Shown: positions 4,437 to 39,618 of the stretch, one piece after another
How the letters are laid out: every line of letters begins with the position of its first letter
Numbering within the stretch: position 1 is the first letter of the stretch
From: Clostridia bacterium
GTDB taxonomy: Bacteria > Bacillota > Clostridia > Oscillospirales > CAG-272
NCBI GenBank assembly: GCA_017403155.1
Contig: JAFQOP010000018.1
Span: 1-39,778 of the forward strand
DNA length: 39,778 nt
Direction: 5' to 3'
Made by a program: the position numbers and the translations under genes
Notes under the pieces: model-generated
Seen by the model: only the letters and a program-made list of their open reading frames with translations
Database searches by the model: none
What the model was told of the DNA's origin: nothing

Positions 4437-5435
4437 ATGGCAAAGTTTGAAGGTTACGAAAGACGCGAGGCGAAGATCCTCGCTGCTCTTAAGGAATACG
4501 GTATCAGCTCCATCGACGAGTGTAAGGAGATCTGCGATGCATACGGCATCGACCCCTACAAGATCGTTGAGGAGACCCAGCCCATCTGCTTCGAGAATGC
4601 AAAGTGGGCATACGTTGTAGGCGCCGCAATCGCAATTAAGAAGGGCTGCAAGAAGGCATCCGAGGCTGCTGCCGCTATCGGTATCGGTCTTCAGGCATTC
4701 TGTATCCCCGGCTCCGTTGCAGAGAACCGCAAGGTTGGTCTCGGCCACGGCAACCTCGGCGCAATGCTCCTCTCCGACGAGACCGAGTGCTTCTGCTTCC
4801 TCGCAGGCCACGAGTCCTTCGCAGCAGCAGAGGGCGCAATCAAGATCGCTCTTAACGCAAACAAGGTTAGAAACAACCCCCTCCGCGTTATCCTTAACGG
4901 TCTTGGCAAGGATGCGGCATACATAATCTCCCGCATAAACGGCTTTACCTATGTAAAGACCGAGTTCGATCCCTATACCGAAGAGGTTAAGGTTATCTCC
5001 GAGACTCCCTTCTCCAAGGGCCCCCGCGCAGCAGTTAAGTGCTACGGCTCGGACAACGTTCCCGAGGGTGTTGCAATCATGAGACTCGAGAACGTAGGCG
5101 TTTCCATCACCGGTAACTCCACCAACCCCACAAGATTCCAGCATCCCGTTGCAGGCACCTACAAGAAGTGGTGCAACGAGAACGGTGTTAAGTACTTCTC
5201 CGTTGCTTCGGGCGGTGGCACGGGCAGAACCCTCCACCCCGATAACATGGCTGCAGGTCCCGCATCCTACGGTATGACCGACACCATGGGTCGTATGCAC
5301 TCCGACGCGCAGTTCGCAGGCTCCTCCTCCGTTCCCGCTCACGTAGAGATGATGGGTCTTATCGGCGCTGGTAACAATCCGATGGTAGGAATGACGGTAG
5401 CAGTTGCCGTTGCCATAGAGGAAGCGAGCAAATAA
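4437..5435 (+). CDS. GGGtGRT family protein
   Basis: 332 residues. Carries the family name-giving motif GGGTGRT at residues 259-265, followed by LHPDNMAAGPASYG. The family is widespread in Clostridia and other anaerobes and is of unknown function; pairing with the NifU-like scaffold suggests an iron-sulfur or metal-dependent role, which is inference. Cysteines at 29, 33, 51, 71, 89, 118 and 120 could bind a cluster. RBS TAGGAGGT. The last 24 codons (5364-5435, encoding ...MTVAVAVAIEEASK) reappear, with mostly synonymous changes and one stop, at 7118-7189; see that feature. The hairpin array begins right after the stop codon. Confidence 0.92.
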   Translation: MAKFEGYERREAKILAALKEYGISSIDECKEICDAYGIDPYKIVEETQPICFENAKWAYVVGAAIAIKKGCKKASEAAAAIGIGLQAFCIPGSVAENRKVGLGHGNLGAMLLSDETECFCFLAGHESFAAAEGAIKIALNANKVRNNPLRVILNGLGKDAAYIISRINGFTYVKTEFDPYTEEVKVISETPFSKGPRAAVKCYGSDNVPEGVAIMRLENVGVSITGNSTNPTRFQHPVAGTYKKWCNENGVKYFSVASGGGTGRTLHPDNMAAGPASYGMTDTMGRMHSDAQFAGSSSVPAHVEMMGLIGAGNNPMVGMTVAVAVAIEEASK

Positions 5436-5686
5436 GATTTGCCGCTTCGGCAACTGCAATGAAATTTGCCCGATAAATCGGTCAAATGAAATACGCTAAA
5501 GCGAATGAAATGTTTGCTTGGCAAACGTGAAATGAGCCGCAATTTTCGAATTGCGGCTCATAAGTATCATAGGGCAAATTTCATTTCAACGATGCCGTAG
5601 GCATCATTTCATGAAGCACTTGTGCTTCATTTCATGTTATGTGCGAAGCAACACAACATTTCATGACGGCTTGTCCGTCATTTCAT
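5436..5686. repeat. Array of nine variable hairpins spaced by ATGAAAT / ATTTCAT
   Basis: Small palindromes follow one another with a constant heptamer between them. Left half: hairpins 5439-5453, 5466-5485, 5494-5503 and 5512-5526, followed by ATGAAAT (5459, 5486, 5505) and GTGAAAT (5527). Centre: an 11-bp-arm palindrome with TTCG loop at 5534-5559. Right half: ATTTCAT at 5578, 5606, 5629, 5658 and 5680, with hairpins 5591-5605, 5613-5628, 5636-5657 and 5665-5679. The heptamer flips to its reverse complement across the centre, so the array is a mirror image at spacer level while stem sequences differ. It fills the space between the convergent GGGtGRT and hydrolase genes and may act as a bidirectional terminator or be a repeat element. 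Confidence 0.85.
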
Positions 5687-5713
5687 TAAAATTGTAACAT
5701 TCAAATGAATTTT

Positions 5714-6700
5714 TTATTGCATAAATCTGTCAATATAATCGTATGCAAACTCACGCACCGAGTCGACGGTATCGTGACCGTCGCCGTGAATATAGAAGCA
5801 AAGGCGCTCGGGATGTTCAAGCAAGGCGTAAACCTTGTGTGCACTGAATACGCAATCATAGACTACAGTGGTATAGGGGTTATACTTATCGTTGAAGGGC
5901 TCAAGCAACAGTAGAGCACGCGGTGCGCAAAGTCCGAGCATTTCGTTTAACTCCCAGGGGGACTTGCCGTTTTTCTCAAGCATACGAGCCTCGTGAGGAT
6001 GAATTGGATGCTCTGTATGAACGAGTCTGTAAGCGTTGGTAGCGTGCGGGGAGATGCCGGTGGAGGGAACGGCGACGCGGATTCGTTCATCCATACCGGC
6101 GAGGTAGAGTGCCGCCTGACCGCCGAGTGAGTTGCCGATAGCACCGTAGCCGTCGTGCTTAACGTAATCAAGCGCATCCAGAACGTCGACGGCTCTCATA
6201 TGACCGAGCACACGGCGTCCGGTCAGCGACCAGTCGGGATAGTTCTTATAAAAGTCGGCAAAACGCGCCTTTCCTTCTTTGGTTTCCATATCTTCTCCGA
6301 AGCCAAATTGGTCGGGGGATATAGTGACATATCCACGCTTAGCAAGCTCGGTGGCATAGGCGCGGTGCGGAGTGTTTACAGGGTCCATAACACCGTATTT
6401 TCCGACTTCGTGATTCGTACCGTGAATGGTAACAACAGCAGGAGCACTTCCTGTCTTTTCAAGCCCTTTGGGAAGAATTATGACAGCGTAATCCCATTCA
6501 TCAGCGAATACGTGATAACGGATGCGAATATGGGTAAAACCGTACTCTTCGTAACGCCCGAGCTCCTCAAAATTCGCCTTTTGCGCTGCGAGCGGCACGG
6601 GACAAGCGCCGAGATTTTCACAAATGCGCGACTTAATCCTCTCTCGTATCGCTTCCCATTCTTCCTTTTTTGTATCTTTTAAAATCAGGTCATTAATCAT
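5714..6700 (-). CDS. Alpha/beta hydrolase (dienelactone-hydrolase / acetyl-xylan-esterase-like)
   Basis: 328 residues, no signal peptide. The nucleophile elbow is AIGNSLGGQAA (Ser191, GxSxGG type), the oxyanion strand VVTIHGTNHEVG (~89-100), the acid probably Asp in LLLLEPFNDKYNP and the histidine in IHGDGHDT near 310, giving a complete Ser-Asp-His triad. It resembles carbohydrate-associated esterases of the prolyl-oligopeptidase/DLH group; the substrate is unknown, and deacylation of oligosaccharides is only suggested by glycosidases elsewhere in the window. It has its own promoter and sits between the two copies of the GGGtGRT 3' end, so it may have arrived with an insertion. RBS is modest (GAAAGGAT). 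Confidence 0.8.
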   Translation of the reverse strand: MINDLILKDTKKEEWEAIRERIKSRICENLGACPVPLAAQKANFEELGRYEEYGFTHIRIRYHVFADEWDYAVIILPKGLEKTGSAPAVVTIHGTNHEVGKYGVMDPVNTPHRAYATELAKRGYVTISPDQFGFGEDMETKEGKARFADFYKNYPDWSLTGRRVLGHMRAVDVLDALDYVKHDGYGAIGNSLGGQAALYLAGMDERIRVAVPSTGISPHATNAYRLVHTEHPIHPHEARMLEKNGKSPWELNEMLGLCAPRALLLLEPFNDKYNPYTTVVYDCVFSAHKVYALLEHPERLCFYIHGDGHDTVDSVREFAYDYIDRFMQ

Positions 6701-6763: not shown

Positions 6764-7117
6764 GCAATCCGTAAAAAACAAAGATTGATTACATAATTAT
6801 ATGAAATAAGTGAGTAGTTGATGGTTTCGCACATGGAAATCACTTTAAAATCCGGTTACGAAAATTCAATAACGAAAAGTTCGATTACATCTTGGATAAT
6901 GATGCTTGCATCAAAAAGGGCTTTGTATTTTTAGCTATTCTGAATTACTCAGAGGCGTTGAAATGATTGGGCTTATATTCCCGACGAGCCACGCCTCTGC
7001 GCTACGCTTGATGCTTTGTGCTTCGCACCTTGTTGTGTTTCACGCAACGCTCGTGGAGCAATCTTCGCAGACTCGCTTACAAGCAGGGCTTGCAGATTCG
7101 CTCTGCGTCGATTATCC
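6764..7117. other. Non-coding or decayed stretch
   Basis: No convincing gene. The only open frame (plus strand, 6906-7145) lacks a ribosome binding site and has no recognisable protein. The right part (about 6960-7117) has coding-like base composition and may be decayed gene sequence, but I recognise nothing in it. Confidence 0.5.
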
Positions 7118-7189
7118 GGCGCAGGTAACAACCCTTAGGTTTTAATGACTGTTGCAGTTGCTGTTGCTATCGAAGAAGCAAGCAAGTAA
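7118..7189 (+). pseudogene. Orphan 3' fragment of a GGGtGRT gene (24 codons)
   Basis: These 72 bases read GAGNNP-stop-VLMTVAVAVAIEEASK-stop and align without gaps to 5364-5435, the end of the intact GGGtGRT gene. By my count 56 of 72 bases agree. Twelve of the 16 differences are at third codon positions; the other four lie in a Met codon turned TAG and a Gly codon turned TTA. The pattern means both copies diverged under coding constraint before this one decayed. It is either the original gene end displaced by an insertion that supplied a substitute end, or the remnant of a second gene copy. Confidence 0.85.
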
Positions 7190-7309
7190 TTGAACAAAAA
7201 GCGTGATTTTATCAAGTAAATAGCAAGTTTTTATCAACTTTGAAATAAATTTTGATAAACTCTCTAACAACTTGAAATCATCTTTTTACAAATTCCTATA
7301 AAAAAAGAG

Positions 7310-7361
7310 TTGGACACATCATTTACGTGGATTACGTGATGATGTGTCCAATTTATTTTAG
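7310..7361 (+). repeat. GGACACATCA stem-loop, copy A
   Basis: Arms TTGGACACATCAT (7310-7322) and ATGATGTGTCCAA (7339-7351) with an inner ACGT/ACGT pair, then the tail TTTATTTTAG. Arms and tail recur at 12997-13046 in the same orientation. It could work as a terminator on the plus strand. It lies directly before the truncated integrase gene. Confidence 0.8.
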
Positions 7362-7370
7362 GAGAAAAAG

Positions 7371-7556
7371 ATGAAAAAATTACGAATGGTTGAGCAGAAT
7401 TTTCTGACTTTGGAAGAGGGGTGTAACAAGTATTTAGACAACTCTCGAGCAAGAAATTTGCGTGAAGGAACGATAAATCACTATCGGCAGAGCTACACGC
7501 AGTTTTATAAGTTCTTCGATCCGCAAATGCCAATTAGTGATATTATGGTAAAATAA
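7371..7556 (+). pseudogene. Tyrosine recombinase (integrase), N-terminal fragment
   Basis: 61 residues with a good RBS (TAGGAGAAAAAG). FLTLEEGCNKYLDNSRARN and the following LREGTINHYRQSYTQFYKFF resemble the N-terminal SAM-like core-binding domain of phage/transposon tyrosine recombinases, which starts the protein and is normally followed by a ~180-residue catalytic domain with the R-H-R-Y residues. Here the frame stops after SDIMVK and no catalytic domain follows in any frame before the convergent GH20 gene. Interpreted as a truncated integrase left by a mobile element. Alternative: a small free core-binding-domain protein. Confidence 0.7.
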
Positions 7557-39004: not shown

Positions 39005-39162
39005 TATGCGTGTTATCCTTAGCGGAGAACACGCATAACTAAGTTTGCCCTTACGGGCAAGTGAAGTTTACTGCGTAAGTGAAGTTATCCTGCGGATAGT
39101 GAAGTTTTGCCTTCGGCAAAGTGGGCAAGCTTAACTTCACTTGTGCGTAACACAAACTTCAC
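39005..39162. repeat. Second hairpin array, spacers GTGAAGTT / AACTTCAC
   Basis: After a TATGCGTGTT/AACACGCATA stem-loop (39005-39037), small palindromes lie at 39045-39060, 39069-39077, 39087-39097 and 39107-39119, with GTGAAGTT after the first three (39061, 39079, 39099). Beyond the centre the spacer flips to AACTTCAC (39133-39140) and ACTTCAC (39156-39162), flanking hairpin 39141-39155. Same design as 5436-5686, with a different spacer word and different stems. Confidence 0.82.
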
Positions 39163-39388
39163 TAGAGGGGGTTGACAGAATAAAGCCATCGGTGATTTCG
39201 TGTCCGCCATAGGCGGCAGCCTCCAATTCCTTGTGGAGGCTGTCGAAAGCACCTGCGGTGCGCAGTATGAGGTTGATTGACAGAGAAAAGCACGTGCGCA
39301 CCCTTTAACGCCAGATACCGCCGTAGGCGGTATGCGAACCCCGCGACATTCGTCGCAGGGTTCGTTACCGACCGACTGCGATAAAAAA
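39163..39388. other. Hairpin-rich non-coding stretch
   Basis: No gene seen. Several strong palindromes follow each other: GCCGCC/GGCGGC (about 39207-39221), AGCCTCC/GGAGGCT (about 39219-39242), GCACC/GGTGC (about 39249-39261), ATACCGCC/GGCGGTAT (about 39314-39332) and GAACCC/GGGTTC (about 39337-39364). They lack the fixed spacer of the array next door. Confidence 0.5.
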
Positions 39389-39420: not shown

Positions 39421-39481
39421 GGCGCAGAGGGAGGGATTCGAACCCTCGTGTGCTTTTGGCACAAACTGATTTCGAGTCCGT
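39420..39481 (-). tRNA. 3' part of a tRNA-Ser (anticodon CGA), 5' half not canonical
   Basis: On the minus strand: anticodon loop CTCGAAA (anticodon CGA, 39472-39474) on a five-pair stem with one G-A mismatch, a class II variable arm TGTGC/GCACA, T arm GAGGGTTCGAATCCCTC, acceptor strand CCTCTGC, G and encoded CCA. The D arm and matching 5' acceptor strand (GCAGAGG expected) are not found in the right place; instead a hairpin GTTCG...CGAAC precedes. Either an attachment-site remnant or a degenerate tRNA. A heptamer GCAGCGG about 135 bases upstream (39562-39568) pairs with six of the seven acceptor bases, perhaps by chance. Confidence 0.62.
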
Positions 39482-39618
39482 TCGGCAACTTGGAAGTTAT
39501 CGAACAATGCTACCTCAATCCCGCCATATTTTAGAAGTTGTTTTCCAACTCTTAAATGCTTCCGCTGCGTTGAGTTCTCTCCTTGAATTTTGGAGAGAAG
39601 GTCAAACACGATGGCGTT

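Follow-up and report, generated by a model that had tools for sequence, protein, structure and literature searches.

Mirrored hairpin arrays on constant heptamers are associated with IVP (PF05635) genes in gut Clostridia

We uncovered an association between genes of the 23S rRNA intervening-sequence protein family (IVP; PF05635) and a class of mirrored hairpin arrays, in which short palindromes of variable sequence are joined by a constant heptamer, with the arrays lying on the upstream side of the gene. The array around which this analysis is centered occupies positions 5436-5686 of the window, i.e., the whole 39,778-nt stretch of the Clostridia bacterium contig JAFQOP010000018.1 analyzed here. 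With a probability of roughly 0.6, we interpret it as a solo, non-autonomous, non-coding copy of an IVP-linked selfish element. Among the titles listed by our literature search, there is no paper that ties IVP genes in general to heptamer or hairpin arrays.

Anatomy of the array and its genomic setting

A first-pass annotation, made from the sequence alone, had described nine short palindromes separated by ATGAAAT on the left and its reverse complement, ATTTCAT, on the right of a central palindrome. The mirrored arrangement on a constant heptamer is confirmed: a hairpin-chain detector run for this arrangement gives the array a score of 6 and gives 200 of 200 dinucleotide shuffles a score of 0, none of them yielding a mirrored array; across 194 other 400-nt slices of the window, the score exceeds 0 in two, both over a second array (Table 1). 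The hairpins do number nine if the junction hairpin (HP0) preceding the first linker is included, but two (HP1 and HPc) are imperfect palindromes, and GTGAAAT stands in for one of the left linkers. ATTTCAT and ATGAAAT together occur 12 times in the window versus 6.1 expected, with eight of these occurrences inside the array. RNA folding of 5400-5720 gives z = -8.2 for the forward strand and z = -9.3 for the reverse strand. CRISPR-like storage was considered and is ruled out: what varies here is palindromic, the linkers come in mirror image, and the constant direct repeats with unique, non-palindromic spacers of a CRISPR array are absent from the window array.

Table 1. Coordinates of the two arrays, their parts and the adjoining gene in the window
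Feature	Position	Strand	Description
GGGtGRT protein gene (PF14057)	4437..5435	+	3' end adjoins the array
Junction hairpin HP0	5400..5457	+	GGGtGRT gene end (5400-5435) pairs with its own inverted copy after the stop codon (5436-5457)
Gut-1 (RF01706), sub-threshold match	5457..5538	+	39 bits, cut-off 50
Linker L0, ATGAAAT	5459..5465	+	
Hairpin HP1, imperfect	5465..5486	+	5' arm and L0 also pairable at long range (GAAATTTGCCC / GGGCAAATTTC)
Left half	5486..5533	+	Linkers ATGAAAT 5486, ATGAAAT 5505, GTGAAAT 5527-5533; HP2 5493-5504, HP3 5512-5526
Central palindrome HP4, 26 bases	5534..5559	.	
Mirror point	5571..5584	+	Complement of the HP1 5' arm plus reversed linker (AGGGCAAATTTCAT; ATTTCAT starts at 5578)
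Right half	5585..5686	+	HPa 5591-5605, HPb 5613-5628, HPc 5636-5657 (imperfect), HPd 5665-5679; ATTTCAT between, starting at 5606, 5629, 5658, 5680
Gut-1 (RF01706), sub-threshold match	5601..5688	-	31.5 bits, cut-off 50
Second array	39006..39163	+	Junction hairpin 39006-39036, then linkers GTGAAGTT / AACTTCAC

The array sits in a convergent intergenic space, as had been recorded, between the end of the GGGtGRT gene on the forward strand and that of an alpha/beta hydrolase gene on the reverse strand, which ends at 5714. The duplicated gene end that was placed next to it does exist, but lies 1.7 kb away, at about 7117-7190, in the form of a second GGGtGRT gene end. The segment 5436-7190 looks like a cassette inserted at the 3' end of the GGGtGRT gene, and this 3' end may be an integration hot spot. 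Beyond the second gene end there is a hairpin, GTTGGACACATCA...TGATGTGTCCAAT (7309-7352), and then a truncated ORF of 61 aa (7371-7556), which resembles the start of integrase-like ORFs found behind GGGtGRT at two other loci (L111 and L105) and had no match in NCBIfam. At two loci of relatives lacking an array at this place (L079 and L106), GGGtGRT gene ends are duplicated directly behind the intact gene.

Stems drift and linkers stay among copies in relatives

An array is present at the same GGGtGRT gene end in five relatives (G050, G004, G057, G028 and G046), and in two more (G047 and G011) what precedes it is another copy, or a remnant, of the gene end; G035 has the same neighboring gene pair with no array in between. 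The junction takes several forms: a fold-back of the gene end like HP0 is also seen in G050 and G011, the stop region belongs to the 5' arm of the junction hairpin in G028 and G046, and the hairpin begins at the GGGtGRT stop codon in G004 and G057.

The window array was aligned with six gene-end relatives (seven sequences in all, with the window structure as reference and one row, G028a, partly misaligned). Across this alignment the 51 pairs of the window structure are paired in 91.6%, with double changes in 21 of the 51. Counted by cells, 39 are double-changed versus four one-sided. On these measures the observed values are reached by 0 of 500 shuffles, and slid controls have 0-6 double-changed pairs as opposed to the 21 seen in true register; further pair types are not above the shuffles (26 versus 28.5). 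The linkers stay or change jointly, as typified by G057 and G028 with TTGAAAT on the left and ATTTCAA on the right. The outcome named beforehand as telling against the first-pass description, conserved stems with drifting spacers, is thus not what these gene-end copies display: here the stems drift and the linkers stay. An active process adding hairpins, which it suggested, may be at work: the junction fold-back and the tandem expansion of a unit in one relative both point toward it. At the latter locus (L062; G006:C68:8828-9292), a three-hairpin unit with the linker GTGATAT forms a long tandem expansion.

A common plan of linkers, stems, loops and array positions

Constant linkers with variable palindromes prove to be the rule across 62 distinct mirrored arrays that our own detector and thresholds picked out at the fetched loci (arrays visible by eye are sometimes missed, e.g., L209), with 202 of their 227 hairpin units being distinct. 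By eye, each array has its own linker, constant within it and reverse-complemented in the second half, and the linkers found across arrays of one genome include ATGAAAT, GTGAAGTT, GTGATATG, TATATCATCA, ATATCACG and ATGAAGC. A protein reading one fixed heptamer is ruled out by this variation within a genome. The earlier proposal of a heptamer-reading protein survives in modified form: it has a candidate, the IVP four-helix-bundle protein, but the linker would be array-specific. Conservation around the 6-base seed drops within 1-2 bases on either side in the 62 arrays, which sets the linker length at about 7-8 nt.

The arrays further share a long-range stem, whereby the 5' arm of the first hairpin reappears as its complement at the mirror point. 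A perfect long-range stem of at least 10 nt is present in 42% of the 62 arrays versus 7.5% upon swapping mid-pieces between arrays (with the same linker where another such array existed) and 0.6% upon shuffling. Departures from regular pairing in the stems are near parity, with 50 G-U and 48 A-C among 1665 pairs after dropping 20 units without a clear stem, and 37 and 34, respectively, among 1071 pairs in the orientation of the IVP strand. This parity leans against selection on RNA pairing, though as a test it is weak, because terminator-like hairpins from the same loci have a ratio of just 169 G-U to 119 A-C.

The loops are polar with respect to strand. On the strand antisense to the linker, triloops have the form G..A in 73 of 116 cases (four on the other strand) with C-G closure in 103 of 116, and tetraloops in 42 of 69 (none on the other strand) with C-G closure in 50 of 69; unlike in RNA GNRA loops, there is no purine restriction on the third base of the tetraloops. 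In DNA, loops of the GNA and GNNA type are of exceptional stability. The presence of C-GNA-G and C-GNNA-G loops on one strand hence suggests that the hairpins of the arrays act as DNA hairpins.

Array positions were analyzed for the 37 of the 62 arrays whose orientation is decided by the long-range stem. In 27 of the 37, the end of a hairpin with at least 10 stem pairs falls no more than 16 nt from the 5' boundary of the array (9.3% at random positions), and five T residues occur there in 17 (3.4% at random positions); the 3' side gives six. The hairpin-to-array distance is 0-4 nt in 24 of 30 arrays with stems of at least 8 pairs. The arrays mostly start directly behind a terminator or other hairpin, which in the window is the fold-back of the gene end.

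Resemblance to Gut-1 and spread of the arrays

Membership in an annotated Rfam family had been set as a further refuting outcome. In part it applies: the window array resembles Gut-1 (RF01706), and the second array scores 53.1 bits over 39036-39110, above the gathering cut-off of 50, but the array at 5436-5686 is itself below that cut-off in its two matches on opposite strands (Table 1). In the window genome (1.5 Mb in 21 contigs), there are 11 Gut-1 matches at E <=1, three of them above the cut-off; control genomes have matches at this E-value in 4 of 14, none above the cut-off. Among the sampled genomes of the genus, including that of the window, 57 of 60 have a match at E <=0.01 and 47 of 60 one above the cut-off, and the controls at E <=0.01 have matches in 2 of 14, again none above it. 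A phylum search with a stricter filter (E <=1e-6) recovered Gut-1 in 2 of 249 genomes, the window genome being one of the two. Judged by its GGGtGRT protein, the window genome has its closest named relatives among gut MAGs, which bear the label Oscillospiraceae or Clostridia. The section of PMC2864571 on Gut-1 counts it among the certain RNA candidates, with a non-coding RNA as its probable nature, and places it in human gut (environmental) sequences only.

G000, at two places, and G047 carry near-identical arrays (96% and 98%) whose upstream flanks are dissimilar; for these copies (C3/C14 and C17) the comparison covers the upstream flanks only, because a contig ends inside the repeat. The G000 contigs C3 and C14 (L019 and L020) both end within the same array, 96% identical over 167 nt, and such repeats therefore break assemblies. 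A separate segment of the window, 39423-39482, has weak Rfam matches to a plastid 3' UTR model and to tmRNA and looks like part of a tRNA; ARAGORN found no tRNA or tmRNA in the window.

Association with IVP genes

In G057 and G046, the ORF directly behind the array encodes an IVP (88 and 94 bits to PF05635), a family that is also captured by the four helix bundle protein model TIGR02436 and whose sequence matches PDB 2rld. In G028 the IVP gene lies behind a second, partial array, and in G050 a short N-terminal remnant of an IVP follows the array. The window has no match to PF05635, making the array at 5436-5686 a solo copy. All 15 genomes chosen non-randomly (the window genome, array-rich genomes and carriers of the gene-end array) have PF05635, with 56 matches of which 54 are above the cut-off.

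From the matches in the genus and family, 87 IVP genes with at least 350 bp upstream were sampled, which is part of the total. An array is found upstream of 56 of these 87 versus 2 of 48 control ORFs from the same loci. The 87 break down into 44 with mirrored arrays, 12 with hairpin chains (one with heptamers), 14 with heptamers alone and 17 with neither; the small control set of 48 has two with arrays and three with heptamers. In the first 61 genes, the detector found no mirrored array downstream of the IVP, and by eye, pieces of the right half trail the IVP gene in G057 and G028. The contigs bearing the two PF05635 matches of the window genome are free of its 11 Gut-1 matches. Across the 15 genomes, each has 2-7 PF05635 matches versus 9-53 Gut-1 matches, of which one array can give several.

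Heptamers at IVP genes elsewhere

At most of the IVP loci sampled beyond this family, the gene stands between two runs of tandem heptamers that mirror each other. PF05635 has matches in 45 of 249 genomes of the phylum. Of 30 phylum loci examined, 17 display a lag-7 periodicity on a side (shuffles 1/150), 21 an inverted match between the flanks exceeding the 99th percentile of shuffles, 23 either sign and seven neither. We also analyzed 16 plasmid loci, chosen from 25 listed out of 27 plasmid records with an IVP; the 16 comprise 13 from cyanobacteria and one each from Bacteroidota, Spirochaetota and Chloroflexota; of these, 14 have the lag-7 periodicity (shuffles 0/80), 13 the inverted match and 15 either. 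Small repeats of cyanobacteria were reportedly described by Elhai et al. in 2008. In a tree of 98 IVP proteins, in which many forks are unresolved and near-copies add to the clustering, the distinction between array and heptamer types needs four changes (shuffled mean 32.2); with unlabelled proteins included, the array label needs 12 (shuffled mean 41.0).

Several of these loci have settings of note. Six phylum loci resembling insertions in RNA genes were scanned: four have the IVP in 23S rRNA, and the other two (L264 and L267) have it, together with mirrored heptamers, within the gene for RNase P RNA (a 367-position model matches 775 nt, 1229-2003). In three loci (L187, L188 and L200), an IVP flanked by TTGAAAR heptamers is beside a tRNA-Leu gene, and another with such heptamers (L190) has tRNA-like pieces on both sides by eye, with none reported by ARAGORN. 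On plasmids, the genes for these four-helix-bundle proteins are found between cas2 and cas1 (L318 and L321), before cas1 (L326), or between DISARM/BREX, helicase-methylase or HEPN-type genes (L327, L328 and L329).

As to precedent, in the Coxiella 23S intervening sequence (IVS), which is excised by RNase III, tandem heptamers precede the S23p gene, and the Xanthomonas S23p is a pentamer (both in the passages of PMC4990558 on these systems); further 23S inserts are described in part of PMC2672173. Sections of PMC4692102, from whose main text the terms "four helix" and "intervening" are absent, state that many bacterial genomes have an excess of heptameric repeats, on which there is no detailed literature, and report 70 and 75 convergent heptamer pairs for two Xanthomonas genomes.

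Interpretation and alternatives

On the preferred reading, the fuller form of the element would be a mirrored hairpin array followed by an IVP gene. In this lineage, hairpins would have been interposed between the heptamers, with the heptamers becoming linkers and both halves coming to lie before the gene, and the copies may owe their spread to mobility of the element. Together, the mirrored linkers and the long-range stem could fold the insert into one compact structure, which might be tolerated behind transcription units in the manner of the excisable 23S inserts. The IVP is a likely partner acting on the heptamer array; solo arrays might rely on an IVP made elsewhere or be dead remains, and fold-back of host sequence is a possible origin of the hairpins. 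The IVP association, polarity, single mirrored linker, compensation, long-range stem, position and many matches per genome are observations, and so are those that run against this reading: solo arrays predominate, there are many more Gut-1 matches than IVP genes, and 17 of 87 IVP genes and 7 of 30 phylum loci fit neither type. The compared copies showed no transposition, target duplication or excision. As heptamer-type repeats flank the gene and here both halves precede it, the case for homology between linkers and heptamers is one made from pattern.

That the array is a Gut-1 non-coding RNA, acting in trans or as a structured 3' UTR with an incidental link to the IVP, would agree with the resemblance to RF01706, the compensatory pairs of the gene-end alignment and the classification of Gut-1 as a probable non-coding RNA in the relevant section of PMC2864571. 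We consider this improbable, as RNA pairing should favor G-U over A-C departures (weak though that argument is), double-changed cells greatly exceed one-sided ones, one half would be antisense in any transcript, and an association at 56 of 87 IVP genes can hardly be incidental when control ORFs show it at 2 of 48. Similarly unlikely, in our estimate, is a single-stranded DNA hairpin element akin to REP/BIME or the ends of IS200/IS605, in which linker plus hairpin would be the recognition unit and spread would proceed via single-stranded DNA: the strand-polar G..A loops closed by C-G, the want of a clear G-U preference in the stems and the abutment of arrays on hairpins all speak for it, but the palindromes vary here while being conserved in REPs, and the linkers differ among arrays of one genome. 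Least credible, and indeed very unlikely, is a passive repeat arising by template switching and slippage at palindromes, with neither function nor partner. It would account for the 5' junctions of the window, G050 and G011, where host sequence is folded back, as well as for the tandemly expanded unit in G006; nevertheless, the plan of long-range stem, mirror and loops is common to many arrays, and the IVP association stands against it as well.

The reading of the arrays as IVP-linked selfish elements can be extended to a joint proposal, which we offer tentatively and hold to be more doubtful than not: mirrored heptamers would be a general signature of IVP elements across bacteria, combined in this clostridial lineage with self-building by fold-back. 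Under this joint proposal, heptanucleotide repeats such as those of cyanobacteria and Xanthomonas would gain an owner. Each hairpin would be an inverted copy of the preceding sequence primed at GNA-type mini-loops; the priming would take place beside the IVP-read heptamer and start from a terminator or host gene end. The preferred reading by itself joins three orphans, namely the Gut-1 RNA, the 23S intervening-sequence protein and the unexplained excess of bacterial heptamers, and, if true, each would be testable through the others as one protein, repeat and array. Moreover, the passage from plain heptamers to hairpin arrays would offer a natural series for how bacterial DNA makes and keeps palindromes.

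Comparison with known systems

REP/BIME elements and IS200/IS605-type ends have a constant short motif beside a hairpin, occur in inverted pairs and are intergenic, and in REPs the palindrome is the conserved part. The arrays depart from these in their variable palindromes, their array-specific linkers and a partner that is an IVP rather than a Y1 transposase; the difference from REP/BIME drawn in the first-pass annotation is thus borne out by the preponderance of distinct units (202 of 227). With Gut-1 they share three hairpins spaced by GUGAAAU, and the second window array exceeds its cut-off, but the 77-position model corresponds to one half, leaving the mirror half, long-range stem, linker variation and IVP outside it. 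Like the heptameric repeats of Xanthomonas and Nostoc, they are built on heptamers, which there often form convergent pairs, although no hairpins are described between those heptamers in the parts of PMC4692102 that deal with them; the cyanobacterial plasmid IVP genes analyzed here likewise have mirrored heptamers.

A parallel to the preferred reading comes from the 23S IVS with its S23p/IVP gene: the fuller elements encode the same protein family, the mirrored repeats can form a stem, as those of the window array also can, and tandem heptameric repeats precede the gene in the Coxiella case covered in PMC4990558. Unlike the IVS, the arrays are intergenic and mostly behind terminators or hairpins, with the solo window copy lying between the GGGtGRT and hydrolase genes instead of in 23S rRNA; hairpins stand between the heptamers, and both halves come before the gene.
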